Origin: Owenia fusiformis
Lineage: Eukaryota; Annelida; Polychaeta; Sabellida; Oweniidae
Assembly (NCBI GenBank): GCA_903813345.2
Contig: CAIIXF020000002.1
Location: 5,246,001 to 5,310,000 of the forward strand
Length of the DNA stretch: 64,000 bases
Reading direction: 5' to 3'
This document shows positions 1,434 through 45,700 of the stretch, piece after piece; within the stretch, counting starts at the first letter, position 1, and every line of letters begins with the position of its first letter. Made by a program: the position numbers and the translations under genes. The notes under the pieces were generated by a model that was not told the DNA's origin, searched no databases, and was given only the letters and a program-made list of their open reading frames with translations.

Positions 1434-4400
1434 GTAAGACAAGTATATCCTCTCAAAAATGGAAGAGAAGTATTTGGAAACCGATAAGGAGAGTTTACCA
1501 TTGTGTTTTCATCTTTACAATGAGATACATCTGAATAACAGGTCAACATCCTTGGTTGTTGCATGGTCAAAATTCTAAATTGGATAGACAGGATACATAC
1601 AAGTATTGTTTTTATCTTCATATAAATTGAGGGAAAATCATCATAACATGAGATGTCTTCATGCCGTCTTCATTAAGTAGATTTATATACTAAATGATAA
1701 TGCTAATATTTTTGCCTCATCCATAGCTTCACCAATGAAAATGCTTTATACCGACCTTGACCCATAAAAATGCTTTATTTTGTAGTTAATGGAGCTTGGG
1801 GCAGCTGGGGCAGTCTCAGTGGATGTTCAACATCATGTGGTAGAGGCTCCAGAAGAAGAACAAGACAATGTAACAACCCACCACCCAGTGGGGCAGGTGT
1901 ATCTTGTAAAACTGGTTCGTCCATTGAATATCGGGCCTGCACAAATAGGCCTTGTCCAAGTAAGCAGACTTTAAGTATCCAAAATAAAAAATTGAAAATG
2001 CTATACGTCAGAATTGAAGTCAAACCCTTTCAAGACAGTGGGCTTTATTTTGCCCTTTATATCACAAAAGAGATGACTGGATGTAACTGGAATGCTGATT
2101 CATGGTCCTAATTTTTGCTGGACTGATGTTTTCCTTGTTCATGTTTTTTCTCTTGTTCTGTTTTTTATCTCTTTGGCACTGGTCCTATTTATTCATTTTT
2201 TTGCTTCTTCCACTATCTCAGTTTTAATTTGTTGATTAATTCTTCAAGTTCCCGGAGAATGGAGTGATTGGTCAGCATTTAGTCCCTGTACTGCAACATG
2301 CGGGGGAGGTACTCAAACACGGAATAGATCATGTGACAGACCAATACCAAATCATTTTTATAATCATAATTTGTAGTTCATGGAGGATGGGGTGATTGGT
2401 CAGCATTTAGTTCCTGTACTGCGACATGCGGGGGAGGTACTCAAACACGGAATAGATCATGTGACAGTCCAATACCAAATCATGGTGGTGATGACTGCTT
2501 GGGTCTTGATGGAGAAACTCAGTTGATTAATGAAACTGAAAGTGCTGATTGCAACATGGATCATTGCCCAGGTATGACAGTACAGTGTTTTAAAACAGTT
2601 TCTTTCCCATCGTTTTTTTCAAAATTAATCAATAAGCAAACAAACAGAACAATACCCTAAGTGCTCATGGAGAATGGAGTGATTGGTCAGCATTTAGTCC
2701 CTGTACTGCAACATGTGGGGGGAGGTACCCAAACACGGAACAGATCATGTGACAGTCCAATACCAAATCATATTTATAATCATAATTTGTAGTTCATGGA
2801 GGATGGGGTGATTGGTCAGCATTTAGTCCCTGTACTGCGACATGCGGGGGAGATACCCAAACACAGAATAGATCATGTGACAGTCCAATACCAAATCATT
2901 TTTATAATCATAATTTGTAGTTCATGGAGGATGGGGTGATTGGTCAGCATTTAGTTCCTGTACTGCGACATACGGGGGAGGTACTCAAACAAGGAATAGA
3001 TCATGTGACAGACCAATACCAAATCATTTTTATAATCATAATTTGTAGTTCATGGAGGATGGGGTGATTGGTCAGCATTTAGTTCCTGTACTGCGACATG
3101 CGGGGGAGGTACTCAAACACGGAATAGATCATGTGACAGTCCAATAACAAATCATGGTGGTGATGACTGCTTGGGTCTTGACGGAGAAACTCAGTTGATT
3201 AATGAAACTGAAAGTGCTGATTGCAACATGGATCATTGCCCAGGTATGACAGTACAGTGTTTTAAAACAGTTTCTTTCCCATCGTTTTTTTCAAAATTAA
3301 TCAATAAGCAAACAAACAGAACAATACCCTAAGTGCTCATGGAGAATGGAGTGATTGGTCAGCATTTAGTCCCTGTACTGCAACATGTGGGGGGAGGTAC
3401 CCAAACACGGAACAGATCATGTGACAGTCCAATACCAAATCATATTTATAATCATAATTTGTAGTTCATGGAGGATGGGGTGATTGGTCAGCATTTAGTC
3501 CCTGTACTGCGACATGCGGGGGAGATACCCAAACACAGAATAGATCATGTGACAGTCCAATACCAAATCATTTTTATAATCATAATTTGTAGTTCATGGA
3601 GGATGGGGTGATTGGTCAGCATTTAGTTCCTGTACTGCGACATACGGGGGAGGTACTCAAACAAGGAATAGATCATGTGACAGACCAATACCAAATCATT
3701 TTTATAATCATAATTTGTAGTTCATGGAGGATGGGGTGATTGGTCAGCATTTAGTGCCTGTACTGCGACATGCGGGGGAGGTACTCAAACACGGAATAGA
3801 TCATGTGACAGTCCAATAACAAATCATGGTGGTGATGACTGCTTGGGTCTTGACGGAGAAACTCAGTTGATTAATGAAACTGAAAGTGCTGATTGCAACA
3901 TGGATCATTGCCCAGGTATGTCAGTACAGTGTTTTAAAACAGTTTCATTTCCATCGTTTTTCTTCAAAATTAATGAAACAACACATATGGAAAAACTCAC
4001 CTAACTAATGAAACTGAAAGGACTGTACTTTAAAGAGCAACACAAATCAATGTCCAGTCTGATCCTTAAACTAAAATATACTAAACTGACAGTGCAATAT
4101 ATCTAACGCTTTTACTTTATGACCTCTATGCATATATATTTGAAACTTTTAAAGGTGGAGAAACTCTGGTTAATGAAACTTCGGCTAATGAAACACTGGC
4201 TTATGACACTGAAAACATTGACTGCAATACGGCTGAGTGCCCAGGTGAGTTAAAGGGTCATCATGGTTTTTAACTCGTTGCCAACATATTTTGCTTCTTA
4301 AATAAAGATATGTGATTTGTTAATTGTGACTAAGAATTAATCAGTCATCATTCTACCTTGATCTTTGCCCATAAACCAAAACCTAATTGATCCGAAGCTC

Positions 4401-7400
4401 TTACTGTACATATACAAAGATCAAAAATGTATATTGACTGGACAGGCTAACTTTTCAATACAAATAGTATTAAGGTATTGAATGATTTGAGGTTATATAT
4501 AGGATATATTCTGCTCGAGAAATTCCGTATTGGAACGAGACAAAGACGAGTGCCGATACAGAATATCGAGACAGAATATATCCTGTATTGCACTTCAAAT
4601 CATTCAATAACATTTTTATCTTGTGATCCTCTGTATTACTACTGAGATTGTTCCCTCTGTACCAATATTTTCTGTATTGCGACGGAGATGATCAGCGAGA
4701 CAATCTCAGTAGCAATACAGATTGGTACAGCACAAGAACTGACCAATCAGAGGGCTTCATTTTACAGATCATACGATTAATATAACATGTAGAACTAAAT
4801 GATGGTAAAAGTAACAGTTATAAATTATTATGTAACATTTAACAATAATGTGTACTAAATGTTTTCAGTGATACATTCAGTTTCAGAAATCAGAATAAGT
4901 AAATAACTCAGAAATATTTTGAGAGGCAGTCTAAATGCAAAAGATCATATGGATATATTTTTCAATGACTTATATAAGATGCAAAAGAAGAACTAAGATG
5001 ACCAGCATGATGTATACCAACAATGATGCACAACTATGATGACCAAGATCTGATGGACATATCCTATGATGACCAACTAACTAAGATCAGTAGAAGATTA
5101 ACATTTGACATTCGAGAGAAATCTAGAATTTGCAAATTGTATTGTACTAAGAGGAGAACTAAAGATAGTTAATGTCAATTCATATGATGCTGATACAATG
5201 ATGCATAAAATTGATGATTAGCACACCATGGTTAACAGTGATTATGATATCAACAATGTGTACAGGTGAAGAATGAATTAAGCAACAATGATACACAAAT
5301 CTTGCTTACAAAGAATCATGTCACCGTGATCATCATACAATGATGCAAAATTACAATGATGCACAACTGCTTCCAACAAACAATTATGGAATGATGATCA
5401 AAATACAATGATGCACAATTGTTACTAACAAACAATCATGGTGTGATGATCAACATATAATGATGCAAAATCACAATGATGCATAATTGTTACCAAAAAA
5501 TAATCATGAAATCATGATCAACATACAATGGTGCAAAATCACAATGATGCACAATTGTTACCAAATAATCACGGAATGATGATCAACATACAATGATGAA
5601 AATCACAATGATGCACAATCATTACCAACAAAAAATCTTGGAATGATGATCAACATACAATGATGCAAATATAACAATTTTGCACAACAATAATTAGAAA
5701 AGTCATCACACTACATGTTATAGCAGTCACAACACAACAGTAATACACAGAAACAAAGATGCACAATGAGGATGACAAATAATCTAATCACAGAGAAAGA
5801 CAATGATGCACAACAATGATGACCTTACCCTGACAATATGACATTGTGCTTGCTTTTCTTTGTTTGTGCTGCCCAATAACATTTTTGCTTTGTATGTTTG
5901 TTTGGATTATGTTGGCCTTTGCGACAGAAACGCAATATGGTAAGTAAGAATAAATCATCCCATAAAAGTGAGTACATGTATTAGTTTGATGTACAGGGTA
6001 TCTCATGAATAAATCATTTTATAAATACACACATATCATAGACAAATCACAAGAGTTTATAGATATATTGGTATTAATAACAGTAAAACCTGTAATGTGG
6101 AATACCTTTCTGTAAGGGACAACTCTCTTTATAGAATAGCTTTCCAAATGGAACAAGCTCAAATGATTCAAATGTTAATGAACCCTCTCTATAAAGAACA
6201 CCTGTCAACTTAGAACAATTTTAGTTTGTATGAGGGGCATTCCATGTAGACAGGTTTTACTGTACATGTAAAATATATTGTATTATATTCTATTTATTAT
6301 GAAATCATGTAATTGTTTTAAAATATCATTCTAATTTCACATCTATATCTAAGCTGATTATTTTAGGAACTGAATGTAAGACATCAGCTGACTGTAAGGA
6401 TGCGAATCGAGCACATTGTCTTCCTGATGGGCTTTGCCACGAATGCCGTGCCCACACTGACTGTGATGAGAAATACCCGATATGCTCTAAGAATTCTGAA
6501 TATATCAATGTATGTGGTGATCCTCGAGTCCAGCAAACCATCAAAGGTAATGCACCAGATCAGTGATCACACCAGCATTAAAGCAAGTGGGCGCAGCACC
6601 CATCTGAGATTTTGAAAATAGGCTTGCACCCACCTGGAAATCCATTTGCACCCATCTGAATATCCATTTGCACCCACTTGAAGATGAGAAAAATCATGAA
6701 AAATAAATTGGCATATTTTAACCAATTTTGGTCTGAATTGTGAAAATGAGAATTTTGCACCCAACTGAGAAAAAATCCTGGGGAGATCACTGCGGACCAC
6801 TAGGGAACATATCTGGGGTCAGATGACAATTCTCGAGAACTTGAAGATAGATTTTAAAAAAAAGTTTGGTCAAACTTCCAGAGGGCCTCCTTATTTGCGA
6901 AAGTAACCTATACCAGAACTAAAGACTTTAACCACCAGCACAACTGGGAAAATAATAAGATTTAGGAAACAACGCCTTCGAGGAAATATGCTTTCAAGCA
7001 GGACTCAGCATTGCTATAGAGCACTTTAACAGCGATGATAGGTGCTTATGGGAATCAGGGGCATCTGTCCAATGAATATCCCAATAAATCTGTGTGCTTA
7101 TGGGAATCAGGGGCATCTGTCCAATGAATATCCCAATAAATCTGTGTGCTTATGGGAATCAGGGCCATCTGTCCAATGAATATCCCAATAAATGTGTTTT
7201 CTTTTTCTGTAGGTACAGACCTGAAGTTCTGCTACAAGATCTTTGGTGAACCAGGGGAGACGTATCTATATCTCAAGGATAGAGACCTAGGTGAGGAGAA
7301 TCAAATTCCATATTTCCAAATAATGCTAAAGGTCATCTTATACTTGTTTTTTAAAGCTCTTTAATATAACTTATGGGACATTGATTGATTCTTTTGATTG

Positions 7401-8523: not shown

Positions 8524-8570
8524 GAATTGTGAAAACATATCACAAGTGAACAACAGACAAGAGGACTTAA

Positions 8571-8765
8571 GCCCGTAGCCAGGGGGGTTCGATGGGTTCG
8601 ATGGGTTCCCCCCCCGACCAAAAAATCTTACAAATCATGCAGTTTTTCACCATTCTGAGCACTTTTTAAGTGATTTTGGCCATTTTTGAACCATAATTGT
8701 CACAAGTGAACCCCCCTGGAATTCTTCAAAAAGTGAACCTCCCTTGGCATATCCTGGCTATGGGC
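8571..8765. mobile_element. MITE of the CCCGTAGCCAGG family
   Basis: It starts GCCCGTAGCCAGGGGGG and ends CCTGGCTATGGGC, a terminal inverted repeat, with a shared interior (CATGCAGTTTTTCACCATTC, then TGAGCACTTTTTAAGTGATT). Other copies: 28657-28827, 39138-39334, 43348-43500 (degenerate) and 58207-58350 (3' end degraded). This copy lies 48 nt after the stop codon of the PLAT/TSP1 gene, so it may be in its 3' UTR. Confidence 0.7.
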
Positions 8766-9539
8766 CTGAAACTGGTATGTTTAACTGATAGAATAGTGGT
8801 TTTGGTGCTTCAATTTCTATTAGTTTTGCATTAATAAATCCTGTATCGTACATGTATATTACCCAAGAAAAACTCAAGAAATGTAAATACAAGAACAGCT
8901 AAACATTAAAGAATGAAGAGCGATTAAGGACTTAAATCTCCATATGAACATGGATTATACCAAGATGATTATGGATTAGAAATACATATAATATAAATTA
9001 GATAATATCAATATGCATAGTAGGATGATATTATTATAATACTTGTAGGTGTTAATCATGTATCAAATCTTGGTATGAACATTGATTATGCTTAACACTT
9101 TCAATTTAAAAACCTATATATTATCCCATAGAATTAATCATATGAACATGGATTATTCCAAAATGAATTGCATGTAGAATAATAATTCTCCATATGAACA
9201 TAGTCTAAACCAAGATAACTGTGGATTTAATCAACAAATAAAATTGGATTATACATCTTCATCTACTCGGATCATAATACATGAAAATAAAATGGATTTA
9301 ACAAAAGTAAATAAAGATAAAAATATGATTTCTCATGGTTTAAACTAAGATGATTATGAGCAAGGATTATGTCTACATACAATGAAGAGGGATTATTCCA
9401 AAGAAAGATTATATCTATAATTGATGGTAAAATGAATATGGAGGACATCTCCATATAAACCATTATGATTATGGATTTTACATTTTGGCTTATAGTATAT
9501 CAAATGAAAATGATTAAGGATTACTTCTTGTAGTGAATA

Positions 9540-9995
9540 TGGATTATAAATTACACCAATATTATTATGGATTACCTCTATGTCAATGAATTACACTGTA
9601 GTGAGCATGGATTATACCAATATGATTATGGATTATATCTATGTCCATGGATTACACTGTAATGAACATGGATTATACCAATATGATTATGGATTACTTC
9701 TATGTCAATGGATTACACTGTAGTGAACATGGATTATACCAATATGATTATGGATTATATCTATGTCCATGGATTACACTGTAATGAACATGGATTATAC
9801 CAATATGATTATGGATTATATCTATGTCCATGGATTACACTGTAGTGAACATGGATTATACCAATACAATTATGGATTATATCCATGTCTATGGATTACA
9901 CTGTAGTGAACATGGATTATACCAATATTATTATGGATTCCTTCTATGTCAATGGATAACACTGTAGTGATCATGGATTATACCAATATGATTAT
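9540..9995. repeat. 61-bp minisatellite
   Basis: Units carry GAACATGGATTATACCAATA, TGATTATGGATTA and TATGTCCATGGATTACACTG. Unit starts at 9661, 9722, 9783, 9844, 9905 and 9966 give an exact 61-bp period; about seven copies. It fades leftward into degenerate ATGGATTAT repeats. Confidence 0.9.
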
Positions 9996-17209: not shown

Positions 17210-20200
17210 ACGAGATGTGGAAAAAGACTCTTTAAAAACAAAAAGCCGCATTCAAGAGTTTTTTAGCCAGCCTATCAAAATGCGTTTCAATGCCAAAGAA
17301 ATGGCAAATCTTGCCCAGCAGAAAGCAACAAAGTATGACAAAGAGGGTCTCTTACACATCAAAGAAAAACCAGAGGGTCTGTTTAAGTCAAGAAAATCTG
17401 AAGGTAAGCTTCTTATAATGGTCTGCTGTGTGGTATTATGCCAGTGTTTTTAAATATTTGTATTACTACTGAAAAATGTGTTTCACATACTTATTCTGTC
17501 CAGTTGGAATCATAATTCAATTAATTAATTAATTAATTAAATTAATTAATTACACACTTTTTGGTACTTTCACTACCTCTCTTAGTGAACACCTGTCTCT
17601 AATGGACACCATTCCTTTGCCCATACTCTACTTAATTCTGCATAAATCACCCTCTCTGGAGCAAACATCTACCAACACTGAATGTTTTCTTCTGGGCAAA
17701 AAAATTCAATACAAACATGTTTAAGCTGGTATCAAGTTTACAATTTGATCTTATGACCAAGTTTTATTAAATATAAATACGCCATTTGATTTTAGTGATG
17801 TTTAGGTATAGATCCAAATGTTTCTGTATTTATGTTTATTTTGTTAACTTGGAATTTGCACATAATTAGTACCTCTCTTCAGTTACATCATACATTTACT
17901 TTCATTACACAGATTTCGAAGATTTTTAGATACTTTTCTTTCATACAGTTGGCATCTTTGCTTTTTATTTTATTAATACCAATATATTACTTTATCAGTT
18001 GCTACCAGTTCTTTAATTACACATATTTTGTTCTATTTCCAGTTTACACGGAAAGATGTTTCCGGTTGCTAGGCAACTTGCTCTTCTATTTTAAAGGAAA
18101 AGATCCGGTAATGATAAAGTTTTGCATTATCATCCTTCAAATGTATTTATCAATAATGTTTTGATTTTTTGTTGATGTAAGATCAGTCATTATTCAAATG
18201 TTATTATGATGATTAAGCAATTCATCACCCTGCATTCTAGTAGGTAGCCATTGCATTGTGTCCTACCCTCATAATGACAATTTGTGTATGAGCTTGAGAG
18301 CTAAATGATAATATGCAGTCTACCATGGTATTGTTTGCACTATTTGTTTCTTAACCCTTTCCTGCCCAGAACTGATTTAAGCAAAATTCCTGTGTTGTCT
18401 TTGAACACATGTTTCAGTAATTTTTCCCCATAAAAGTAAATATATTCTAAAGGATTAAAGAATGTTGCATAATAAAAAAATAAAATCTAAGTAAAGTGTT
18501 CTGCTTTAAATTTACGGTATTCTAAATCAACTATAAGGTCAGGTTATGTAATTATGTCGATTGGTGTGATTGCGCAGGAAAGGGTTAATGAGGAACAATT
18601 CTTGATTTATATTTTCTTGCTTTGTTTCACTCAGTTTTGTTCAAGTTAGCACTATAGACCATAAGAAAATTGACAATTTGGAGAGCAAAATCCTTGTCCC
18701 AAATGAATTAATGAAATATAAAGACAAAAAAACAACATTTCTTCAACAATGTTTAATTTGTTTCAGAACTCAGAACCTCTAGGATGTATTGTATTAGAAA
18801 GATGTGCTGTACAGTTAGACCTTGAGGAGCAATTACCATACTCTTTTACAATTGGTATGTAGTATGAAATATACACAGTTAGACCTTGAGGAGCAATTAC
18901 CATACTCTTTTACAATTGGTATGTAGTATGAAATATACACAGTTAGACCTTGAGGAGCAATTACCGTACTCTTTTACAATTGGTATGTAGTAATGAAATA
19001 TACACAGTTAGACCTTGAGGAGCAATTACCATACTCTTTTACAATTGGTATGTAGTATGAAATTTACATACTACGGTGCAGCTGGTCATGAATTGTATTA
19101 TTGTAGTTACTAGTTAGAAATTATATAAATATTGGGCTAGAAAAATTGTGTTTCTATGGATGCTATAATCAATTTGTGAATTCATAAAGATGCTGATGAA
19201 TATTGCGTCGAAACAAAGAATTGTACCATACTAGTTGAACCACATCCTCCGTCCGATCACAGGGCTTCAAAATCCAAAATATCTTCTTTCTTTTTACCTG
19301 CTGCGATAAGCAGTTAGCATTTCCCTGATTAAGAACTCGCAATTTGATTCGCTGTCGCAACACTGCGACAGCAATCATGTATACGTCATCGGTGTATAAT
19401 TAGATCACGTGATTCAGTTTAATCGGGCGCTTCCAAATTGCTTATAGCAGGGGGGAAGAAGAAGAAGAAGGTACAGATTCTGGACACCTGCTAAGAAGGA
19501 TGGTTGGACCATAACACCAATAATGTATAATTGTCTTATTTTCAGTATTTGAGTCTGATGAGAAGCTGACAAATCTTGCCTCAAATTCAGAGGAAGAGCG
19601 CGATTCCTGGATCGAAGTACTCCATATCGCAAGTTACGAGTGTCTACAAATGCAGTTACAGAGCCTCCGTGAACAAATCCAGAGCAAGACAGGAAGAGAC
19701 CCCTTAGAGAATCCTCTACCTACGATGGATGAAGACTCAGAAATGCGAGGTGAAATACAATTATACAAAGTTATTGTTAATTTTTGCTTCATTAACTAAA
19801 TGTGTTGCAATTTATATAGGGAATACACGGGTTCCTTAAGGCTAGTATAATTACTACACTCTAAGTGGGGCAACTCAGTTTTAATGCTTCATGAGTCGTC
19901 GTAAAAATTGCTAAATCAAATTATTGAAAAGGGTAGTTTGCGAATTGATTCTTTGAAACCTTAGTGATTTAAAATGCCTAAGAGAAGTTTTTGATAATGC
20001 ACTTACATACCCCCTACGGTTATCTAGTGTGTAAATGTAACACTACAGATAATTAACTACATGAATAAATGAATAAAAAATATTAAAAAAATATAGTCAA
20101 ATGTATTCAAGCTCCAGTTTGACAAAATAATGCTTATTTTAAATTAACCATTTTTCTCATACTTTTTATATTTCCCAGGTGTCAGTGACGAGGAACCCAT

Positions 20201-20217
20201 GCTGGAGATATGCTTGG
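17210..20217 (+). CDS. INPP4: INPP4 exons 1-5: N-terminal PH-like region
   Basis: These exons encode [75 protein letters not shown] and [15 protein letters not shown], then a helical stretch ending [13 protein letters not shown] basic strand, [16 protein letters not shown], and a late helix with a conserved Trp are the usual PH-domain landmarks. Exon 1 is open upstream of ATG 17280 for 23 codons to its acceptor; I prefer ATG 17280 because the homologous block starts MRFNA, but an upstream start spliced in phase is possible. Exon 5 is only 39 nt. Confidence 0.75.
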
Positions 20218-29200: not shown

Positions 29201-32200
29201 TTCAACCTGAAAGACTTTGAATCTTTAACTACAGTTTTTGATTTGGGTCCTAAAGGCCTGAACCTAAAGGCCTCGGGAGGTCAGCTCATTGGGCCATCAT
29301 CTCAGCCCTAGGAGATATGATAGACTTGGCAAGGATTGGGTTGGGTTAGATGTTGCTCAAGAGTTTTTTTTGTTTTTTTTTGCTCAAGAGTTATCACCTT
29401 CTTGAACTGGGCCAGAAGCAGAGGAGATAATTTCACCTTTGCACTGATTGACTTATATTACTCCATGCATGGTGATTCCATCATGCTAAGTTCCAGTCCA
29501 TACCCTTTATAGAATATTGTTTCCTATATCAATACAGGTCTTAATTGACATGACATACTGCACCAAAATTGATTTTAGATAATGAAATAAAAATCCAGTG
29601 GTACTCATCCTATCTCACAAGACAAGATAAGATTTAATAGAATAAAGACTTTACGTGCCCTATGGCCCAAAGGCATGAATTGACTTGACAAGGCATGTCA
29701 GACATGAAAAAGAAATGAGAACCCAGTAATTAGTACAATAGTCACTAGGACAGGGAACTACTAGGGAACCACTGGGGAACTACTAGGGAACCACTAAGGA
29801 ACTACTAGGAAACTACTAGGGAACTACTAGGGAACCACTGGGGAACCACTAGGGAACCACTAAGGAACTACTAGGAAACTACTAGGGAACTACTAGGGAA
29901 CCACTGGGGAACCACTAGGGAACCACTGGGGAACCACTAGGGAACCACTAGGGAACCACTAGGGAACTACTAGGAACCACTAGGGAACCACTGGGGAATA
30001 ACTAGGGAACTACTAGGAACCACTGGGGAACTACTAGGGAACCACTAGGGAACTACGAGGGAACTACTAAGGAACCACTAGGGAACTACTAGGGAACCAC
30101 TAGGAAACTACTAGGGAACCACTAGGGAACTACTAGGGAACCACTAGGGAACTACTAGGGAACCACTAGGGAACTACTAGGGAACCACTAGGGAACTACT
30201 AGGGAACCACTAGGGAACTACTAGGGAACTATTAGGGAACTACTAGGGAACCACTATGAACTACTAAGGAACCACTGGGGAACTACTAGGGAACCACTAG
30301 GGAATTACTAGGGAACCACTAGGGAACCACTAGGGAACTACTAAGGAACTACTAAGGAACCACTAGGGAACTACTAGGGAACCACTAGGAAACTACTAGG
30401 GAACCACTAGGGAACTACTAGGGAACCATTAGGGAACTACTAGGGAACCACTAGGGAACTACTAAGGAACCACTGGGGAACTACTAGGGAACCACTAGGG
30501 AATTACTAGGGAACCACTAGGGAACTACTAGGGAACCACTGGGGAACTACTAGGGAACCACTACGGAATTACTAGGGAACCACTGGGGAACTACTAGGGA
30601 ACCATTAGGGAACTACTAGGGAACCACTAGGGAACCACTGGGGTACTTAAGAGCTTAGGAGGCCTGATATTAAAAAAACAGAAATGACAAATCACAGTAA
30701 CTTTTTACCTTACAGGATCAACCCATATCCCCAATGGAATGTAAAACGAAGAGGCGAGATATGCTTAAACCTGTTTATGACAACATAGTGACAAAGAGCT
30801 ATAGGTTTCCCACTGCAGGAGGTACACAGCTCAGAGTGTGGGAGTACATGGGAGAAAGCAAACTGACCTTCAATATACCAAAGCAATTACTGTAAGTTAG
30901 TACAGTGGTTCGTTTCTTTTTATTTCTATTCATTTATAAAATATAAACATTTATAGCAGTTTGCTTTCACATTATACACCAATTGGTTCATTTTTGTTTG
31001 GGTGCATTGTTCATCATAAATTATGAATGGGTATTGTGATTTGATTGCATTGTTCATCATAAATTATGAACAGGTATTGTGATTTGGTTGTATTGTTCAT
31101 CATAAATTATGAACGGGTATTGTGATTTGGTTGCATTGTTCATAATAAATTATCAACGGGTATTGTGATTTGGTTGCATTGTTCATCATAAATTATGAAC
31201 GGGTATTGTGATTTGGTTGCATTGTTCATCATAAATTATGAAAGGGTATTATGATTTGGTTGCATTGTTCATCATAAATTATGAACGGGCATTGTGATTT
31301 GGTTGCATTGTTCATCATAAATTATGAATGGGTATTGTGATTTTGTTGCATTGTTCATTATAAGTTATCAATGGGTATTGTGATTTGGTTGCATGGTTCA
31401 TCATAAATTATGAATGGGTATTGTGATTTGGTTGCATCGTTCATCATAAATTATGAATGGGTATTGTGATTTGGTTACATTGTTCATCATAAATTATGAA
31501 CGGGTATTGTGATTTGGTTGCATTTTTCATCATAAATTATGAATGGGTATTGTGATTTGGTTACATTGTTCATCATAAATTATGAACGGATATTGTGATT
31601 TGGTTGCATTGTTCATCATAAATTATGAACAGGAATTGTGATTTGGTTGCATTGTTCATCATAAGTTATTGTGATTTGGTTGTATTGTTCATCATAAATT
31701 ATGAACAGGTATTGTGATTTGGTTACATTGTTCATCATAAATTATGAACGGGTATTGTGATTTGGTTGCATTGTTCATCAATAAATTATGAACGGGTATT
31801 GTGATTTTGTTGCATTGTTCATCATACGTTATGAATGGGTATTGTGATTTGGTTGCATTGTTCATCATGAATTATGAATGGGTATTGTGATTTGGTTGCA
31901 TTGTTCATCATAAATTATGAACAGGTATTGTGATTTGGTTGCATTGTTCAACATAAATTATGAACAGGTATTGTGATTTGGTTGCATTGTTCATCATAAA
32001 TTATTAATGGGTATTGTGATTTGGTTGCATTGTTCATCATAAATTATGGATGGGTATTATGATTTGGTTGCATTGTTCATTATAGATTATAAACGGGTAT
32101 TGTGATTTGGTTGCATTGTTCATCATAAATTATGAATGGGTATTGTGATTTGGTTGCATTGTTCATCATAAATTATGGATGGGTATTATGATTTGGTTGC

Positions 32201-35200
32201 ATTGTTCATCATAGATTATGAACGGGTATTGTGATTTGGTTGCATTGTTCATCATAAATTATGAATGGGTATTGTGATTTGGTCACATTGTTCATCATAA
32301 ATTATGAATGGGTATTGTGATTTGGTTGCATTGTTCATCATAAATTATGAACGGGTATTGTGATTTGGTTGCATTGTTCATCATAAATTATGGATGGGTA
32401 TTATGATTTGGTTGCATTGTTCATCATAAATTATGAATGGGTATTGTGATTTGGTTGCATTGTTCATCATAAATTATGGATGGGTATTATGATTTGGTTG
32501 CATTGTTCATCATAGATTATGAACGGGTATTGTGATTTGGTTGCATTGTTCATCATAAATTATGAACAGGAATTGTGATTTGGTTGCATTGTTCATCATA
32601 AATTATGGATGGGTATTATGATTTGGTTGCATTGTTCATCATAAATTATGGATGGGTATTATGATTTGGTTGCATTGTTCATCATAGATTATGAACGGGT
32701 ATTGTGATTTGGTTGCATTGTTCATCATAAATTATGAACAGGAATTGTGATTTGGTTGCATTGTTCATCATAAGTTATTGTGATTTGGTTGTATTGTTCA
32801 TCATAAATTATGAATGGGTATTGTGATTTGGTTGCATTGTTCATCATAAATTATGAATGGGTATTAATATTTGATCTGACCAATCACAGTCAATTATCAT
32901 TATTCGAAATATCATAGTACATTATTTTTAATTGTATGCCTTTGTTAATTGCAGTTCTCTGTGGATTGAGGAAGAGAGTAGATCCATGCAGCAACTACAA
33001 GACCTTGGAGTTGTACGTTACTTTTACTAGACTTATCATATTCTCTCTAATAACAATGAGTGCACAGTTCCAATGCAACTTTTATGTTGAGTATGGTCTC
33101 AAGTGATAATCTTAGTGATAACACCTTATCCGCAATAATTTTTCTCATTTTTTACGTGCGCTTATTTGAAATCCTTTAAGACTTTATCTTACCCTTTTAA
33201 AATTACAATTTGGAAACCGCACTGTTTGTTCATTTAATAGAATATTGTGTATAAAAATAACATGTGTATCGCACTTAAGTTTTTGAGTTATAAGTGCTAT
33301 GATACTTACTAGATTACTATTCTAGTATCTATATTAATATTATAACCCCCAGAGATTACTGTCCCTCTCTCGATTGGTTCTTCCAGAGACTTAAAGGCCT
33401 ACTTTGCATATTTTCAATTAAGTATAGTGGGCCTTTAATTACAACATTTTTCTTTGTGCCTTTACACTCAGTCTGGCAAGTTAATGATGCGAAGAGGAAA
33501 ACTATAAAGCCCAGAGAACCATACATGTTCAGGTACAAGTTCATTTAAAATTGTATAGCTTAAACTCCCAAATAGATGGTATAATGGGAGTCCCAATAGC
33601 CAATAGTCTCAGTACTTTGTGATTGAGCTGATATACATGAGCTGTTGTTTGTTTCAGTTAAGTGCAGAGTGGAATAGTAAAGTGAAGGAAGCTTTGGAGT
33701 TACATATGAATCTCATTAGCGTTTACAAGAAAAATGTCAGGTTCCTTGCTGAACAAAATGGTGAGTTTCAATAATATACAATAATATGACCAAATGTAAA
33801 TGACAGTTTAATTGTGAAAATGAAAAAAATCCAAGATCGCAAAGTAAGCTTTCTAATCTGAATACCATTGGGACCAGTCAAAGTGTTTTGTTTGGCAGGT
33901 GTTAACATTTCAAGGTTTGTTACATGGTAGTTTAGCATAATAAAAAATGGGACTGCAAAACATTCACAACCAGAGGTCTTTGGATACACAGGTATAGTGC
34001 ATCTTAAAAGTGCTTTTAATTGATACATGAAATGAACATCTTACAAAAAACAGCTTTACTCAACTATGACTACTGTACGTGTAAATCGAATGAAAATACA
34101 CATGCACTAATAATCAGTTATGGTAAGATAATAAAGATGTCGCTATGCTATTAAAACCTATTTACTTTGTAAATAATCATTACTCTCATTTTGACTTGTA
34201 ATTTAAGTGTAAAGATAGCAAATGAAAAGCATGGTCATCTGGCCATTTTACAGAATTAATCCTGCTAACCATAGTTGACCTGTAGGAGCCTTGTATACGT
34301 ACATGTTTACATTGTTATGATTTTAGGTGCCCCATTCAAACCCAGTAGACTGAAAGCAAATAAAGAGTTAGAATTCGTGCCCACTAATTTACACTTGCAG
34401 AGAATCTGGGCTCAGAATGCAATGAAAGAGACAAGTAAGAAAATCTTCCGTTTTTTTTCTTTCTTTAAGATTTTTCTTTCTTTTTGCTTCACATTACCAA
34501 TGTTTCTGGAAATAAGATTAGTTCCTGTAGGATCAAGATTCTAACTTTGTTTCAAACTTAAGAAACAATTTAAATTGTGTTATTTCACTGAAAGGAAATG
34601 CTAACAATTTCTTGGGCTCTGAGCAGTCATGGTATATACAGTACTCATATGATGGAGTACTACATGTAACATAAATAGTAAATGTGCATTAGATTTGTGT
34701 TTTCAACTAGCCCAAGTGATTTACATCATATTTTTAGATTCACTATTTGATTGTGAATATTATCCAGTAAAACCTGTGTAAGTGGAACTTCTGTTCTGTT
34801 CAAAATCATTCAACTTAGGCTTTTCCACTAAATCGAGGTTTAATGAACATTTAAAAATGTGTTCCACTTAACTTATACATGTACAACAGTATACCACTAT
34901 CCAGGTTTTACTGTTGTTCAATAGTTTAATGGTATTTTATGATTATAATTGCAAGAGCCTTTTTTACTTATTTTGTATTTTTTGTTTATTTTAAATTAGG
35001 TGGTTGCTATGACATCACGACAGTTGGAGCATTTACAGCCTACTCTCAAAAATACAAAAATGGCGGACTAAAAAGACTCTTGAATCAACAACGTGAAATA
35101 TTTGACCTTAACAGTGGAGAATCTCAGTTAGATGACAAAATGAGGAAATATTATAAAATCCAAAACAATTTGATTCGATTAAGGGATGATATACATTACC

Positions 35201-37429: not shown

Positions 37430-37460
<31 letters not shown>

Positions 37461-40400: not shown

Positions 40401-43400
40401 AGGCATGCATACCTGGCATAGAACATTTAAAGTACAAGCAAAGTACAAAACCAAAACATAAATATTTTGTCAAATTACATGACTTTTGTTTGAATTGAAC
40501 ATCTTTAACAGCAATCATGATTATTTTTTTAGGGATGCGATAGTGGTAGAAATTCCTGTCCCAGAAAATATGTTCCAACTTCTGCCAATTGAGATCCTAC
40601 ATGGTCATCTGATATCTCTTGTGCCAGTCTTCTTCAACATTGGCATAAATGAACAGGCAACTCTAGCTGAAAAGTAAGTCATTTAATGTCTCTTGTGCCA
40701 GTCTTCTTCAACATTGGCATAAATGAACAGGCAACTCTAGCTGAAAAGTAAGTCATCTGATGTCTCTTATGCCAGTATTTTTCAACATTGGCATAAATGA
40801 ACAGGCAACTCTAGCTGAAAAGTAAGTCATCTAATATCTCTAGTGCCAGTCGTTTTCAACATTGACATATATGAACAGGCAACTCTCGCTGAAAAGTAAG
40901 TCATCTGATGTTTCTTATGCCAGTATTTTTCAACATTGGCATAAATGAACAGGCAACTCTAGCTGAAAAGTAAGTCATCTGATGTCTCTTATGCCAGTAT
41001 TTTTCAACATTGGCATAAATGAACAGGCAACTCTAGCTGAAAAGTAAGTCATCTAATATCTCTAGTGCCAGTCTTATTCAACATTGACATATATGAACAG
41101 GCAACTCTCGCTGAAAAGTAAGTCATCTGATGTCTCTTATGCCAGTATTTTTCAACATTGGCATAAATGAACAGGCAATTCTAGCTGAAAAGTAAGTCAT
41201 CTGATGTCTCTTATGCCAATTTTCTTCAACATTGGCATAGATGAACAGGCAACTATATCTGAAAAGTAAGTCATCTAATGTCTCTAGTGCCAGTCTTTTT
41301 CAACATTGGCATAGATGAACAGGCAACTCTAGCTGAAAAGTAAGTCATCTAATGTCTCTAGTGCCAGTCTTTTTCAACATTGGCATATATGAACAGGCAA
41401 CTCTAGCTTAAAAGTAGGTCATCTAATGTCTCTAGTGCCAGTCTTTTTCAACATTGGCATAAATGAACAGGCAACTCTAGCTGAAAAGTAAATGTATTTA
41501 TTTACGGTTGAATCACGAAGTATGAATTAGTGTATAAATAATTTCTGTACGGTCAAGGTGTTTTGAAATGATTTAATAATAGAACGAGGTCATGTATGAG
41601 TGGATTGTTTTCTTGGGTATTGAAAGGTTTTGTAGGCGTCATCTTGGTTCTAAACGTCAAAGCGGGTGGACTAAACTTTACATTATTTTAGAATAACATG
41701 TATTTAGTTTATTGTATGTTCAAAAAATAATTACCATGGTTATTAGGTAAATACTTGTAGAAGTTCAAATCCTCACACTGCTCCTTTTCATGGAGAGGTG
41801 GACCTCCCTATAGAATTTTCTGTAAAGTACACGCTGGTGTATTGCAGTTTTTATATAAAGGGTTGGGTTCCCGGATCAGGAGCCGGTGCAACAGTTGCAT
41901 CGTTAACAACTTTGGTCACAGACAAACCATTTTATTGTGCAAAAAAGCAACTCTTGTATCAGCAAAATAGTTTGTAGACGCTAATTAAATACATAATAAT
42001 CGATAAAGATCGCATTGTAATCATGTTAATTAATGTTGAAAGATGATGATGATATTGTATTTGTCAGTTGGAATAAACGGTTACTGCAGCTCCACTCTCG
42101 GCGCTTGGCGCAGAACCATACCTAAGAGGATGTGTGTTAGGTTTTTTATTGAGAATGAAGAAGCTTTGTTAGGACAGAAGTCATTTTGTATTTCTAGTGC
42201 CAGTCTTTTTCAACATTGGCATATATGAATAGGCAACTCTAGCTGAAAAGTAAGTCATCTAATGTCTCTAGTGCCAGTTTTTTTCAACATTGGCATATAT
42301 GAACAGGCAACTCAAGCTGAAAAGTAAGTCATCTGATATCTCTCATTTAATAGAGGTAAACTGAATTTTGCATGATTATCACTTGCACAATGATTTCATT
42401 ATAAGGTGATTTTTTTTTATCATATTCTAGTATCTTATTGTAATATAAGGGATACATGGCAATGATGTGTTTGTAGTAATTTAATCTACTTTTGCAATTT
42501 GACCTATTTTATTTAAGAAATATAGACCGAAAAGCAGGGGTTATATCGTCGAATACACCCCGCAGGGCTAGGCACAAACGTTTTCCGTACCCTGAACGAC
42601 CGGAGGGAGTGAGGGGTTCGAAAGCTTTTGTGCCTAGCCCCAAGGGGTGTATTCGACGATATTACCCCTGCTCTGAGGTCTATATTACGATTCGAACATG
42701 AAAACTCACCAAATTGTTTCGAATATTCATCATGGTCCGCCGTTACTACGACCCACCGTTATGACGTCACACATTACATGTATTAACTGGGTTATTGATC
42801 TCGAATAAACCCCAGCTGAAGCATTGACTTTGTTTACAGTTTATAGAAGGCGTGAATACAGTCATGTTCGAATATGAGTTTGAGGAATCATCATGGAATG
42901 CCTACAGAAAAGTATCATTTTATTTGAGTTGTGGAGGGTAGCTCCATTGTTTCCAACCAACCTGTATATGTACTCGTATTCTAGCCACCATGTGTATGTA
43001 TTATAGCCACCCTGTGTATGTATTACAGCCACCCTGTGTATGTATTCTTAGCAGGAGATTTCTGTTTTAGGTTTGGTGACACTTCTTTACAAGAACTGTT
43101 GAACTCCGACAATGCAAAGATTCTCGTTAACTACTATGAACAATACACAGACCTTATAGAGGATCCAGGTAAGTGCTTATATAACTGAATCGGAGATATT
43201 TATTCATTAATTAATGAATTCAAGATACTTGTTATTATACTTTATGTGGGAGATGTCTGAACTGGGCACTAATTAGTTTGCCGGGTTGTTGGACATCTTG
43301 ATTATTCAAGTTTTATTTTTGGCTTCCTTGTTTTGCGGCCCCCTCCAGGCCCATAGCCAGCTTTTGCTAAGGAGGGGGGGGGGTGTCACTTTTACAAAAC

Positions 43401-45454
43401 ATTTAGGGGTCCTTACATATTACAAATTTGGCCAAAAATCACTTGAAAACTTCTCAGAATAGTACTCAGAAACTCCCCAAACCCCCTCTGGCTTTGGACC
43501 TCATGGCCCTATCTGATATCCATTTTTCCAGATGGGAATAGTGAAGAGCATGCCCATGCTGCATTCAAAGTGAGTGAACTGGTGGAGAAACTCAAGAACA
43601 ATGTAAGGATCAAGAGGAACAAAAATGTGGAAATTCTACAGATAGCATCTGAGGTAGGATGTATGAAAATTAAGACAGAACATGATTTATGACAAATTTA
43701 GCAAGAATTAAGGTACCGTAAAACCTGTATATCCAAACATCTCTCTTATTTGTACACATATTTATGTGAATACTGTATCTCAGTTCAAATTTGACTCCCA
43801 TTGACTCACATATTGATTGAATTGATTTTATTGAAGTGGTAAAACAGGCGCAAACAGCGACCTTGTCATCTCATGTGCAAACATTGAAATGCTTGAAATT
43901 TGCTTATTTTTCATAACAGGAAGCAGCAATTCAAGGTTTTGTTCTCCCGGGCAATACAATTGAAATGCTTGAAATATTTGAAACTCATCCCAAAGTTTAC
44001 AGTGTACAGTACAGAGAGAACATGACTTGATGATATGATTTTAAATATATTTATTATACTTTGCAGATATGCCGTAGGTTGAATGGGGTAAGGTTCACCC
44101 ATTGTAAGAGTGCTAAAGATAGGACTGCAATGGCAGCCACGTTGGAACAGGTCCAGTTGTTACAACGGGAACATGACTTAGCACCTCATATTTTTAATCA
44201 TGCCCTGAGCTGTATGCGAAGGTATCTAATATGTTTTAAGGTTGTCATGTTTTTGGATAAAAGTTATGAGAAATAATTTGGGTTTTGTTTTATGCTTGCA
44301 TTTTTTGATCAGTTGAGTAAATGAGTTTTATTTTCAAAAATGCATTACAATGGTACACAACAAGGTTCAATTGCTTTGTTTTGAAGTATTTTGACGAAAA
44401 GGATTTTATGCCTGTGTATTACACCTCAAAAATCCTTCATTTTTCAATTCAATTCAATTCTATTTATTTCATAATTCTTATATAATATACACTATAAAAA
44501 CAAGCCGCTAGACACCCTAGTGGGTATATGTTGCGGTTTAACAGAAATTATTAAAATGACATCTAGACTAAATATAAAAGAAAACACTTATATTATGTTA
44601 CATGTAGGTATATAAAAATGGTATTAACAATTTATCAAAGGATTATAAAGCTTTTTTGTCAAAATACAATTTAATCTGGTTTGTTACTTTAACTGATGGA
44701 TATATTGGGCTGAAATTGTTTTGAGAATCCTCCCTGTATGAAACAGACACATAGGTAGATGTCAGAAAGGCTCACAGTTCATTTAAACAAAGTCAGAAAC
44801 CGGAACATGAGAATTTCACTCTACTATACCTATCCCCTAGAAATGCATAAGATACTATGTTGGTCTAATTGTATTGTTTAGTATATTTTTGAAAATACCT
44901 TATTTACATCTAACAGTCATCCGATAAACCATTAATAAGGAATGGACGTATAAAAGCAAATAACATAATCATTACTAATAAGCAAAATGGGTTGCTCATG
45001 AACACCAAATGTAAGGTATACAGTAGAGTGAATTTACCAAAGGGACATTAAATGTCTCTAAATTATCACATTTAGCCATACACATGTACAGGGCTATTAA
45101 AACATTTCAGTCATCGATTTTGGAGCATCTACTTTTCTGATCTTTTTATAAAAACAGCATATTGAGCATGAGGGTAAAATTACAGTTACATGATTTGAAT
45201 AATTAATGAATAAAAACAAATAAAGACAACAATTACTGACACAATATTATGACTAAAGACCTTGAAATTATAAAACCTTGTCAGTCATAACATCAGATAT
45301 GTTTTATGTTTCAAATTCCAGTGAGGGTGTAAGAAGAGAGAATTCCTACAAAAACACAGGGTCAAAGAAATATGCCTTTAATAGCATACAGTTACTGTCT
45401 GTTCCTAAGTTATACAGACCCCCAAATGGAACATTCGGCAATACTCAGACATAG
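17210..45454 (+). CDS. INPP4: Inositol polyphosphate 4-phosphatase (INPP4 type), complete or nearly so
   Basis: Removes the 4-phosphate from PI(3,4)P2, damping PI3K/AKT signalling at endosomal and plasma membranes. Exons: 17210-17403, 18043-18107, 18767-18854, 19546-19749, 20179-20217, 20378-20496, 20684-20800, 28292-28371, 28974-29058, 30716-30891, 32955-33012, 33658-33760, 34327-34434, 35000-35280, 36059-36367, 37462-37650, 37950-38018, 38829-39073, 40533-40673, 43071-43168, 43532-43653, 44067-44221, 45322-45454; possible microexon 39858-39896. All phases agree. From ATG 17280 the coding length is 3108 nt, 1035 residues. Order: PH-like, C2, conserved middle, phosphatase with CKSAKDRT, and the family C-terminus ([18 protein letters not shown]). 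The single gene looks ancestral to vertebrate INPP4A and INPP4B, so no paralogue letter is given. Introns hold several large minisatellites. Confidence 0.93.
18812..19070 (+). repeat. 64-bp tandem repeat copying INPP4 exon 3 and its donor
   Basis: The last 43 nt of exon 3 plus the donor and the first ~20 intron nt are repeated four times, starting at 18812 (in the exon), 18876, 18940 and 19005. Each copy keeps CAGTTAGACCTTGAGGAGCA and TTTACAATTGGTATGT. The three downstream copies have a donor but no acceptor. Confidence 0.95.
19240..19510. repeat. Dispersed element, copy 2 (inverse of 195-460)
   Basis: Reverse-complement relative of the sequence at 195-460. It carries GATCACAGGGCTTCAAAATC, GCTGTCGCAACACTGCGACAGC-type hairpin at about 19350-19371 (two 10-nt arms), GGCGCTTCCAAATTG and GATTCTGGACACCTGCT. 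It ends about 40 nt before the acceptor of INPP4 exon 4. Confidence 0.65.
20378..29058 (+). CDS. INPP4: INPP4 exons 6-9: C2 domain
   Basis: Exons 20378-20496, 20684-20800, 28292-28371 and 28974-29058. They encode [63 protein letters not shown] and [11 protein letters not shown]. This is the strand order and spacing of the INPP4 lipid-binding C2 domain (FVAVSV.TPP, EIIEGT.NP.FL, KL.VYDVKD, LG...F.V..LL). One 7.5-kb intron splits it. Confidence 0.88.
21404..23190. repeat. 783-bp segmental tandem duplication with 162-bp sub-repeats
   Basis: A block starting TTTTTGTATTAAAGAGGCAA at 21404 begins again at 22187. Each copy holds GGTACGATATTGTCGTCAGC followed by a GC-rich array of GGGC/GGCG units, then 162-bp sub-repeats carrying ACTTGTCTACAGGTTTCCAG and CAAACCATTTGACGGATTC. 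Sub-repeat starts at 21744, 21906 and 22068 give the period. The second block has more sub-repeats. The GC-rich core is unlike its AT-rich surroundings. Confidence 0.9.
24445..24839. mobile_element. Short TIR element with an internal duplication
   Basis: Ends are AAAGGACGATTCTCGG(TTTGGAGAAC) and its inverse (GTTCTCCAAA)CCGAGAATCGTCCTTT, about 26 bp each. The interior has two ~200-bp related halves, both with GCATTATCCCTGCT/GCGTTATCCCTGCT and AATTTGGGTAATATTTCTA. No coding capacity. Confidence 0.8.
25109..25318. mobile_element. MITE with CACTGGCGRATCCAG ends
   Basis: It starts CACTGGCGAATCCAG and ends CTGGATCCGCCAGTG. ATACC occurs at both flanks and may be a target-site duplication. The interior has the G-run and CCCAGAAAGGCCCATTTTG; no ORF. 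Confidence 0.7.
25356..25990. mobile_element. Foldback mariner-like MITE, ~240-bp arms
   Basis: TA + CAGGGTGGTCCAAAAAAATG at the left and the inverse CATTTTTTTGGACCACCCTG + TA at the right. Inverted similarity runs about 240 bp inward, including ACACTCGTATTTCAA, CATGTCATATTAT and AAATGACGTCATTT. The TA flanks and CAGGGTG-type tips are typical of Tc1/mariner derivatives. No transposase ORF. Confidence 0.8.
26065..26145 (+). mobile_element. tRNA-like SINE head
   Basis: TAGCTAAAGTGG fits a pol III A box, and GGGTTCAATTCCC about 45 nt later fits a B box. The arms do not form a good cloverleaf, so this looks like a tRNA-derived SINE and not a tRNA gene. Confidence 0.45.
26440..26583. repeat. Long palindrome
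   Basis: Left arm includes TATAATGGTTGATTCTGTAT, then ACTC...GTGAGTATATGATATATTC. Right arm includes GAATATATCATATACTCAC and ATACAGAATCAACCATTATA. The short loop contains GAAGGGAACG. Confidence 0.8.
26608..26705. repeat. 18-20-bp tandem repeat
   Basis: Six units of GAGTTGTATACGCTATCC or close variants follow the palindrome directly. Confidence 0.8.
27327..27647. repeat. Cluster of three nested palindromes
   Basis: First: GTTATGTCACTATGACGTGA at about 27327 pairs with TCACGTCATAGTGACATAAC at about 27420. Second: TGTATTCCAC + GCCCTTCGGGC + GTGGAATACA near 27459-27495. Third: CAAATATTCCATTCTAT at about 27512 and CATCTTTCCCTCAG pair with CTGAGGGAAAGATG and ATAGAATGGAATATTTG ending about 27645, with GCCCGAAGGGC at the centre. 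Confidence 0.85.
28657..28827. mobile_element. MITE of the CCCGTAGCCAGG family
   Basis: Begins GACCGTAGCCAG and ends CTGGCTACGGGTC; the interior shares CATGCAGTTTTTCACCATTC with the copy at 8571. The left flank ACCAAAGCAG is also found beside the copy at 58207, so the repeat may extend further left than the inverted ends. Confidence 0.7.
29745..30646. repeat. 11-bp minisatellite, ~80 copies, in INPP4 intron 9
   Basis: Units alternate GGGAACTACTA and GGGAACCACTA with rare variants (AAGGAACTACTA, GGGGAACCACT). The stretch covers about 900 bp and stops about 70 nt before the acceptor of exon 10. Alternation of the C and T forms suggests a 22-bp higher-order unit in much of the array. Confidence 0.97.
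30716..37650 (+). CDS. INPP4: INPP4 exons 10-16: conserved middle region
   Basis: Exons 30716-30891, 32955-33012, 33658-33760, 34327-34434, 35000-35280, 36059-36367 and 37462-37650. Landmarks shared with INPP4[54 protein letters not shown], and [11 protein letters not shown]. Exon 15 encodes a Pro/Ser-rich stretch with [10 protein letters not shown], likely a disordered linker, ending EEPW like the EEEW motif of the vertebrate proteins. Confidence 0.9.
31003..32873. repeat. 43-bp minisatellite, ~43 copies, in INPP4 intron 10
   Basis: Units contain TGCATTGTTCATCATAAATT, ATGAATGGGTATTGTGATTT and GGT. The period is 43 bp from the first copies at 31003 and 31046. Variants (GAACGGGT, GGATGGGT, GAACAGGA) recur in blocks, and two truncated units (CATAAGTTATTGTGATTTGG) occur at about 31660 and 32770, showing that part of the array itself was duplicated. 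It fills most of the 2.06-kb intron. Confidence 0.97.
34764..34914. mobile_element. MITE with CAGTAAAACCTGT ends
   Basis: CCAGTAAAACCTGT at the left and CCAGGTTTTACTGT at the right, same family as 6080-6263. It lies in INPP4 intron 13, about 85 nt before exon 14. Confidence 0.65.
35293..35400. repeat. Short inverted-repeat element
   Basis: TTAAGGTGGGAC at the left and GTCCCACCTTAA at the right, a 12-bp inverted pair around 85 nt. It starts 13 nt after the donor of INPP4 exon 14. Confidence 0.6.
35835..35925 (-). mobile_element. tRNA-like SINE head, reverse strand
   Basis: On the minus strand GGGTTCAATCCC fits a pol III B box, preceded by GTTAGCAAGCTGG that could be a degenerate A box. No good cloverleaf. 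It sits in INPP4 intron 14. Confidence 0.35.
36409..36898. mobile_element. Harbinger-like MITE, 490 bp
   Basis: Ends CACCCCAGTCACAT and ATGTGACTGGGGTG are exact inverses, flanked on both sides by TAA, a 3-bp duplication of the TWA type used by PIF/Harbinger elements. The interior has repeated CTACGGCGACC / CTACGCTCGCCG motifs in both orientations and is GC-richer than the intron. ORFs in it are short and not protein-like. Confidence 0.75.
37166..37343. mobile_element. MITE with ACAGTAAAACCTGT ends, decayed right end
   Basis: The left end is exact; the right end is degraded (TACAGGTTTCAATGTA). Interior repeats of GTTCCA and GGTGTTCC resemble 6080-6263. Confidence 0.55.
37371..37468 (+). other. 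Duplicated splice acceptor before INPP4 exon 16
   Basis: GTATTTTCAGGACAT occurs at 37371-37385, then about 70 nt of almost pure T/A, then TTTTTCAGGACATGG, the real acceptor at 37460-37461. The upstream copy repeats the acceptor and the first five exon bases. Using it would put poly-T in the reading frame, a run of Phe and hydrophobic codons that stays open to exon 16. Confidence 0.6.
37950..45454 (+). CDS. INPP4: INPP4 exons 17-23: phosphatase domain
   Basis: Exons 37950-38018, 38829-39073, 40533-40673, 43071-43168, 43532-43653, 44067-44221 and 45322-45454. Motifs: [77 protein letters not shown] (the CX5R loop, Cys and Arg intact), LEQ, CMRR, and the C-terminus [20 protein letters not shown] ending NTQT. 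All catalytic-loop residues that I can name are present, so the enzyme should be active. Confidence 0.95.
39138..39334. mobile_element. MITE of the CCCGTAGCCAGG family
   Basis: Begins GGCTGTAGCCAGG and ends GCTGGCTACAGGCC, with the CAACTTTTCACCATTTT interior. It lies just after the donor of INPP4 exon 18. Confidence 0.65.
39858..39896 (+). CDS. INPP4: Possible INPP4 39-nt microexon
   Basis: Between TTCCTTTAG and GTACAT lies a 39-nt open segment, phase 2/2, that fits exactly between exons 18 and 19 and would add 13 residues ([13 protein letters not shown]). Vertebrate INPP4 has no insert here as far as I recall, so if used it is likely an optional cassette. Confidence 0.4.
40599..41492 (+). 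repeat. 74-bp tandem repeat copying INPP4 exon 19 and its donor, ~12 copies
   Basis: The last ~60 nt of exon 19 (GTGCCAGTCTTCTTCAACAT, AACAGGCAACTCTAGCTGAA) plus AAGTAAGTCATCT are repeated at a 74-bp period: GTGCCAGTCT at 40621 and 40695, ATGCCAGTAT at 40769, and so on. Nearly every copy keeps the AAAGTAAGT donor; none has an acceptor. Confidence 0.97.
41493..42192 (+). other. ~700-bp unrelated segment splitting the 74-bp array
   Basis: No repeat units, no TIRs and no coding potential that I can defend. It separates the main array from two stray units at 42193-42350, so it looks like an insertion or a patch of original intron between two amplified blocks. Confidence 0.5.
42193..42350 (+). 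repeat. Two stray units of the 74-bp exon 19 repeat
   Basis: Both contain AGTGCCAGT, TTCAACATTGGCATATATGA and GCTGAAAAGTAAGTCATCT. They retain the donor motif. Confidence 0.9.
42521..42686. repeat. Palindrome in INPP4 intron 19
   Basis: TATAGACC, AGCAGGGGT and TCGTCGAATACACCCC pair with GGGGTGTATTCGACGA, ACCCCTGCT and GGTCTATA. A second inner stem GGCTAGGCACAAA pairs with TTTGTGCCTAGCC. The loop contains GACCGGAGGG. Confidence 0.85.
42975..43048. repeat. 24-bp tandem repeat, three copies
   Basis: AGCCACCMTGTGTATGTATT repeated at a 24-bp spacing, ending about 20 nt before the acceptor of INPP4 exon 20. Confidence 0.8.
43348..43500. mobile_element. Degenerate MITE of the CCCGTAGCCAGG family
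   Basis: GGCCCATAGCCAG at the left and CTCTGGCTTTGGACC at the right, with a G-run and ACTTCTCAGAATAGT inside, which is the inverse of the family interior. In INPP4 intron 20. Confidence 0.5.
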
Positions 45455-45700
45455 ATTGAAAAAGTGTCGAACAGGATCAAAGAAATATGCCTTTAATAGC
45501 ATACAGTTACTGTCTGTTCCTAAGTTATACAGACCTCCAAATGGAACATTCGGCAATACTCAGACTTAGATTGAAAAAGTGTCGAACAGGGTCAAAGAAA
45601 TATGCCTTTAATAGCATACAGTTACTGTCTGTTCCTAAGTTATACAGACCCCCAAATGGAACATTCGGCAATACTCAGACATAGATTGAAAAATTGCACA
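45361..45700 (+). repeat. 115-bp tandem repeat of the terminal INPP4 exon, three copies
   Basis: The last part of the coding exon including the stop (ACTCAGACATAG) is present three times, with internal ATGCC at 45372, 45487 and 45602. The second copy has CAGACTTAG. Between copies lies ATTGAAAAAGTGTCGAACAG. Copies 2 and 3 lie after the stop codon, so they are 3' UTR or downstream DNA, yet stay almost identical to the coding copy. Confidence 0.97.

Follow-up and report, generated by a model that had tools for sequence, protein, structure and literature searches.

Minisatellites at exon edges are commoner than random placement predicts in sampled genes of Owenia fusiformis

Minisatellites that span exon/intron boundaries have been described in lancelets as 'mirages'. 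Two reports place them in several genes, including PGBD5 (PMC3902484), and indicate that their copy number or length differs between haplotypes or cells and that, by RT-PCR, normal mRNA splicing is unaffected (PMC3087553, PMC3902484). The authors call the mechanism unclear (PMC3087553). Exon-edge tandem duplication has also been proposed as a way in which new introns arise, with examples in single genes; one study reportedly describes intron gain by tandem genomic duplication in potato RdRp (PMC4974935), and the AG/GT model of intron gain of Rogers is cited in PMC3087553. In humans, internal tandem repeats alter gene structure, and some of them lie at exon/intron boundaries (PMC2812944).

We analysed a stretch of 64,000 nucleotides from the annelid O. 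fusiformis (hereafter the window). The host assignment agrees with the Forkhead genes, as the 38 matches in this genome lie on the same nine chromosomes that PMC9539403 lists for O. fusiformis, chromosomes 5 and 7 carrying tandem clusters in both. A lancelet host was dropped; a GFP-family search, which drew no response from control genomes either, gave no match, and a search with COX1 located no mitochondrial genome. A first-pass annotation had reported four tandem arrays in two neighbouring genes, and TRF together with the raw sequence located all four at the same places, each unit consisting of coding sequence joined to a splice site or a stop codon (Table 1). The 128-bp unit of the first gene comprises 107 exon and 21 intron bases, while the 115-bp unit at the end of the second comprises 99 coding bases ending in TAG and 16 bases of 3′ UTR, and sits at an edge of the coding sequence that has no splice site. 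That the arrays start inside real exons held for the donor-side and stop-codon arrays, as in the 64-bp array, whose first copy is the true exon end; the TSP1 array, being on the acceptor side, instead ends inside the intact exon. The units had also been called almost identical, a description that is too strong for copies that are 89–97% alike by TRF. The TSP1 region contains a self-repeat with an offset of 672 bp and 98.6% identity, which makes the arrays of exons B and C copies of each other.

Table 1. Features of the window (positions count from its first base)
Feature	Position	Strand	Unit and copies	Remarks
Acceptor-side array, TSP1 exon A	2247–2483	+	128 bp, 1.9 copies	TRF, sequence read
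TSP1 exon A, intact	2377–2571	+		
Acceptor-side array, TSP1 exon B	2665–3155	+	128 bp, 3.8 copies	End of intact exon: 3243
TSP1 exon C and its array (duplicate of exon B)	3337–3827	+		Offset 672 bp; end of intact exon: 3915
52-bp array	7042–7197	+	52 bp, 3 copies	Ends 15 bases short of next exon; adjoins exon, contains none
PH-domain exon, INPP4-like gene, intact	18767–18854	+		Donor GTATGT
Donor-side array at PH exon	18811–19068	+	64 bp (44 exon + 20 intron), 4 copies	
INPP4 catalytic-region exon, intact	40533–40673	+		Donor GTAAGT
Donor-side array at catalytic-region exon	40604–41491	+	74 bp (70 exon + 4 intron), 12 copies	
Second block of 74-bp units	42178–42343	+	74 bp, 2.2 copies	0.7 kb downstream of first block, same intron
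Last INPP4 coding exon, intact, with stop codon	45322–45454	+		
Stop-codon array at last INPP4 exon	45356–45693	+	115 bp, 2.9 copies	

The first gene carries a TSP1 domain, as the intact exon read from the DNA matches Pfam TSP_1 (E 9.4e-12). The second is an INPP4-like phosphatase, supported by tblastn with human INPP4B as the query; its PH domain falls just below the Pfam cut-off (E 3.9e-5), and its C-terminal peptide matched no Pfam family. A DNA search of the genome found the four window units at their own locus only, apart from one 77% match to the TSP1 exon on contig C1. A dispersed or mobile introner-like element was rejected for the window units on this evidence, the units being local save for that one weak match. 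The same kind of search, in one assembly, found no second copy of the window locus, and the idea of a second haplotype on the small contig C222 was dropped after no match was seen among the sampled stretches.

As judged from the genome sequence, these arrays have the same structure as the lancelet mirages. Common to both are tandem units of tens to ~160 bp lying across an acceptor or donor edge, AG or GT in many of the units, an intact exon at one end, and occurrence in several genes. TRF confirms tandem minisatellite-like repeats in the window, and the units of three of the four arrays cross an exon/intron boundary, whereas that of the stop-codon array does not. The AG or GT, which is kept in many but not all lancelet copies, is also kept in the Owenia copies, with loss in 6 of the 14 extra copies of two older arrays, L122 and L129, from the samples described below, in which the copies were located by period or by a loose motif. 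The Owenia arrays differ in their annelid host, the reported mirages being from cephalochordates, although the host group is not part of the structural definition. One of them, moreover, lies at a stop codon and another covers a whole exon, and they are numerous enough for a statistical placement test. Our literature searches, which covered few subscription papers, found no other recurrent case beyond lancelets.

The remaining systems are less similar. Intron-gain duplications, like the Owenia arrays, are tandem duplications containing splice signals, but the extra Owenia copies sit inside an existing intron or UTR, and no new intron is seen. The human internal repeats likewise arise by minisatellite expansion, some at exon/intron boundaries; they belong, however, to young segmentally duplicated genes and half of them lie in coding sequence (PMC2812944). 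The Owenia sample, by contrast, comes from old gene families, and its copies seem to be non-coding. The Owenia units mostly combine part of an exon with one splice site, the whole-exon array L005 being the exception. Arrays of mutually exclusive exons are, in contrast, tandem copies of exons, and such exons are likewise present in a myosin gene on contig C9.

Recurrence was assessed on exons sampled from the same genome as profile matches to three unrelated families, namely myosin head, kinesin and chaperonin (PF00118), giving 280 matches. For myosin head, 65 of 210 candidates were scored and 87 of 94 matches, in 20 stretches, were used. For kinesin, 122 of 218 candidates were scored and 130 of 147 matches, in 74 stretches, were kept, leaving out 17 of the 18 tandem matches of one array, and for chaperonin all 76 first-look candidates were scored and 63 of 66 matches, in 34 stretches, were kept, leaving out three long intron-poor matches. 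We read by eye those arrays that overlapped a match, together with some of the others whose period was at least 25. Among the matches sampled, 24 of 280 (8.6%) are touched by an edge array (myosin 3/87, kinesin 13/130, chaperonin 8/63). Scoring 122 of 218 kinesin and 65 of 210 myosin candidates could favour repeated exons, a point that also weighs against the placement results below. With the four of the window included, 32 arrays were read by eye, comprising 19 on the acceptor side, 11 on the donor side, one at a stop codon and one covering a whole exon. The unit straddling the exon edge is 28 to 260 bp long, and tandem copy numbers run from about 2 to 18. Wherever the relevant end lay within the sampled stretch, one end copy was part of an intact exon. 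In donor arrays this was the copy that comes first, in acceptor arrays the one that comes last, and in the stop-codon array the one with the first stop.

The myosin arrays at profile matches are L009, L014 and L016 5327–6423, and three more lie at exons absent from the profile listing (L016 2190–2781, L016 2919–3989 and the whole-exon array L005 5813–6934). Taken jointly, the exons of the former two give a weak Myosin_head match (E 0.074) where one would be expected. The peptide of the L005 array had no Pfam match, and its designation as a myosin exon is our own assignment. Kinesin genes contributed 14 arrays, one of which shows 18 copies ~159 bp apart in the match listing, and that at L065 2563–2927 belongs to an exon absent from the profile listing; chaperonin genes contributed eight.

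In the random-placement tests, an array was reduced to a single unit, for which random positions were drawn within its own stretch, excluding placements that fell fully within an exon. The main test used arrays with a period of 50–400 bp and a TRF score of at least 80, took profile matches as exons and counted overlap with a match. In the sampled genes, exon-edge arrays are commoner than random placement predicts: pooled over the three families, 18 of 28 arrays lie at an exon compared with 6.94 expected (P 3.5e-6), and all 18 cross an exon edge when read by eye. The first-pass annotation had proposed such a test genome-wide; the outcome on samples of the genome bears out its suggestion of a shared process behind the four cases in 43 kb. 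The excess is present in kinesin (11/14 versus 3.75 expected, P 4e-5) and chaperonin (5/5 versus 1.83, P 0.0044), while myosin alone, with profile matches as exons, shows none (2/9 versus 1.37, P 0.41); myosin and chaperonin together, without kinesin, give 7/14 versus 3.20 (P 0.017).

Several variants of the test were run. None of 52 further exon matches, obtained with human proteins as queries and including three that are extra copies inside L043, was newly crossed by an array, and with them the myosin and kinesin result weakens to 13/23 versus 5.88 expected (P 0.0011). For the same two families, allowing exon-interior placements gave 13/23 versus 6.83 (P 0.005). In the main form of the test, adding the four arrays recognised only by eye, an array-guided and hence biased step, gave 17/23 versus 5.35. 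At periods of 10–24 there was no excess in these two families (1/22 versus 0.85). Periods of 25–49 gave 4/20 versus 1.46 (P 0.051) without chaperonin and 7/26 versus 2.43 (P 0.007) with it, both counts including L092, which was not inspected by eye. At L062 the profile overran the acceptor and its match was cut back by hand; the 39-bp array there is intronic by eye. In the window alone, four of eight long-period seeds, collapsed by hand, cross an edge compared with 0.65 expected (P = 0.002), given 27 exon models that are approximate and incomplete. As the window was picked for its arrays, the independent samples carry the test.

The units themselves lean towards the exon. Across 28 arrays the mean exon share of the unit is 0.61, with 20 above and 6 below one half (P 0.009; for the 260-bp array of L016 the exon length was set by hand), and the exon matches have a GC content of 41% compared with 33% elsewhere. 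We consider it likely that the exon-edge minisatellites result from exon-biased local tandem duplication, followed by expansion and a survival filter. Local tandem duplications would arise and expand via slippage or unequal exchange, with a bias towards exon-containing, GC-richer DNA. Duplications within an exon would break the coding sequence and be purged, whereas those crossing an edge would be tolerated: under exon definition, the acceptor and donor nearest to each other are paired, and at a coding end translation stops at the first stop codon. The extra copies would thereby become intron or UTR, and survivors would pile up at exon edges and coding ends. The excess would on this view combine formation and survival, whose shares are inseparable in these data.

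Alternatively, the duplication machinery could be aimed at splice junctions, for example through paused transcription, R-loops or polypyrimidine tracts. This would account for the excess at edges and for the intron part of most units being no more than a few tens of bases long. We nevertheless regard it as unlikely, since the units are exon-heavy rather than junction-centred, acceptor and donor arrays both occur in number, and one array lies at a stop codon and another covers a whole exon. Priming of repair or slippage at exon/intron boundaries, as put forward in the first-pass annotation, fails on the same two arrays and on the same exon bias. A point against the favoured reading is that measurement of microhomology at the tandem junctions showed no clear signature, with scattered values and a median of 1, in the 19 arrays measured (6 were cut by stretch ends and 4 skipped).

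The arrays could also be retained by selection for decoy splice sites that buffer or tune splicing. All of 23 arrays, with 102 extra copies, keep the GT/AG core unchanged, compared with 19 arrays expected if these were ordinary dinucleotides (P 0.010), but the motif used to locate the copies includes the core, so that intact cores are favoured from the start. In 24 arrays, the greater constancy of exon parts over intron parts in the extra copies is not significant (5.1% versus 6.4% of pairwise sites, Wilcoxon P 0.10); the per-array averages (3.95% versus 8.61%, P 0.10) and an ungapped count lean in the same direction, and some constraint on the exon parts is possible. For L043, whose intact end lies outside the stretch, one extra copy was used in its place. 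That part of the decoy-site suggestion which the unchanged cores support is offset by the core losses in L122 and L129, and the stop-codon array has no splice site to retain, making selection of this kind a rather doubtful explanation. The lack of significant constraint on the exon part also led us to reject the extra copies as alternative exons. Selection on the reading frame was likewise dropped: the first nine periods were all non-multiples of three, but 8 of 29 were divisible overall (8, 11 and 10 arrays for remainders 0, 1 and 2).

It is improbable, too, that ordinary minisatellites fell on exon edges by chance and were merely not removed. The myosin result alone would fit this, as would the existence of arrays away from edges and the lack of excess at periods of 10–24, but the pooled excess and the five of five chaperonin arrays argue against it. 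An assembly artefact is very improbable. The arrays are numerous and spread over unrelated genes, every array has a unit of its own and variants inside it, and lengths range from a few hundred bases to ~3 kb at the longest; the published O. fusiformis assembly, possibly not the same one, used PacBio, linked reads, an optical map and Hi-C (PMC9977687).

It is possible, and we put it forward tentatively, that exons are hot spots of tandem duplication in this genome, with several percent of all exons affected. Thousands of genes would then carry decoy splice sites as raw material for new introns or exons, and the same general mutational process would act in lancelets and annelids through convergence or common inheritance. 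At the proportion of touched exon matches found here, genome and RNA data that already exist allow the mutation step, the splicing tolerance and the route to intron gain to be measured directly. In genomes of this kind, gene models and the mapping of short reads may err at exon edges.

Two further families were surveyed from match listings. Closely spaced partial matches were not found in a listing of 43 HSP70 matches. The SNF2 search (80 matches, all 79 candidates scored) showed one array, in which one exon of an SNF2-family gene is present five times at a spacing of 137 bp, with four of the copies partial (C2:4915297–4916006), as taken from the listing rather than from the letters.

Among the matches listed in the Myosin_head profile search of the Owenia fusiformis genome, one myosin gene on sequence C9 contains a tandem series of whole exons, all of which correspond to profile positions about 18-84; the series is probably a large mutually exclusive exon set. 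Elsewhere, the stretch between two myosin exons in L016, a sampled genome stretch, is composed nearly wholly of two exon-edge arrays, with a donor-side array followed by an acceptor-side one.

On C2, one kinesin exon recurs in tandem with identical scores in most copies, and the profile-match listing places a series of SNF2-family exon copies, four of them partial.

Coordinates of arrays and exon series (L stretches, local coordinates)
Feature	Location	Unit or spacing	Copies
Myosin whole exons (L001, L002)	G000 C9:37986009-37994334		12 among matches listed
L016 donor-side array	within 2190-3989	83 bp	7
L016 acceptor-side array	within 2190-3989	91 bp	12
Kinesin exon	G000 C2:23266359-23269174	about 159 bp	18 among matches listed
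SNF2-family exon	G000 C2:4915297-4916006	137 bp	5
Window split array	21744-23172	162 bp	
Window bracketing array	within 29752-32865	11/22 bp	
Window bracketing array	within 29752-32865	43 bp	44
L003 array	3636-4404	145/146 bp	
L012 array	2350-3227	145/146 bp	

In the window, TRF found a split array where no exon is known; a GGCGGGC repeat stands ahead of both of its blocks. Two further arrays bracket the exon match at 30764-30892, approaching within about 120 bases on both sides and excluding the exon itself. Finally, similar arrays lie close to two separate myosin genes (L003 and L012), and they look like a single dispersed satellite-like family.
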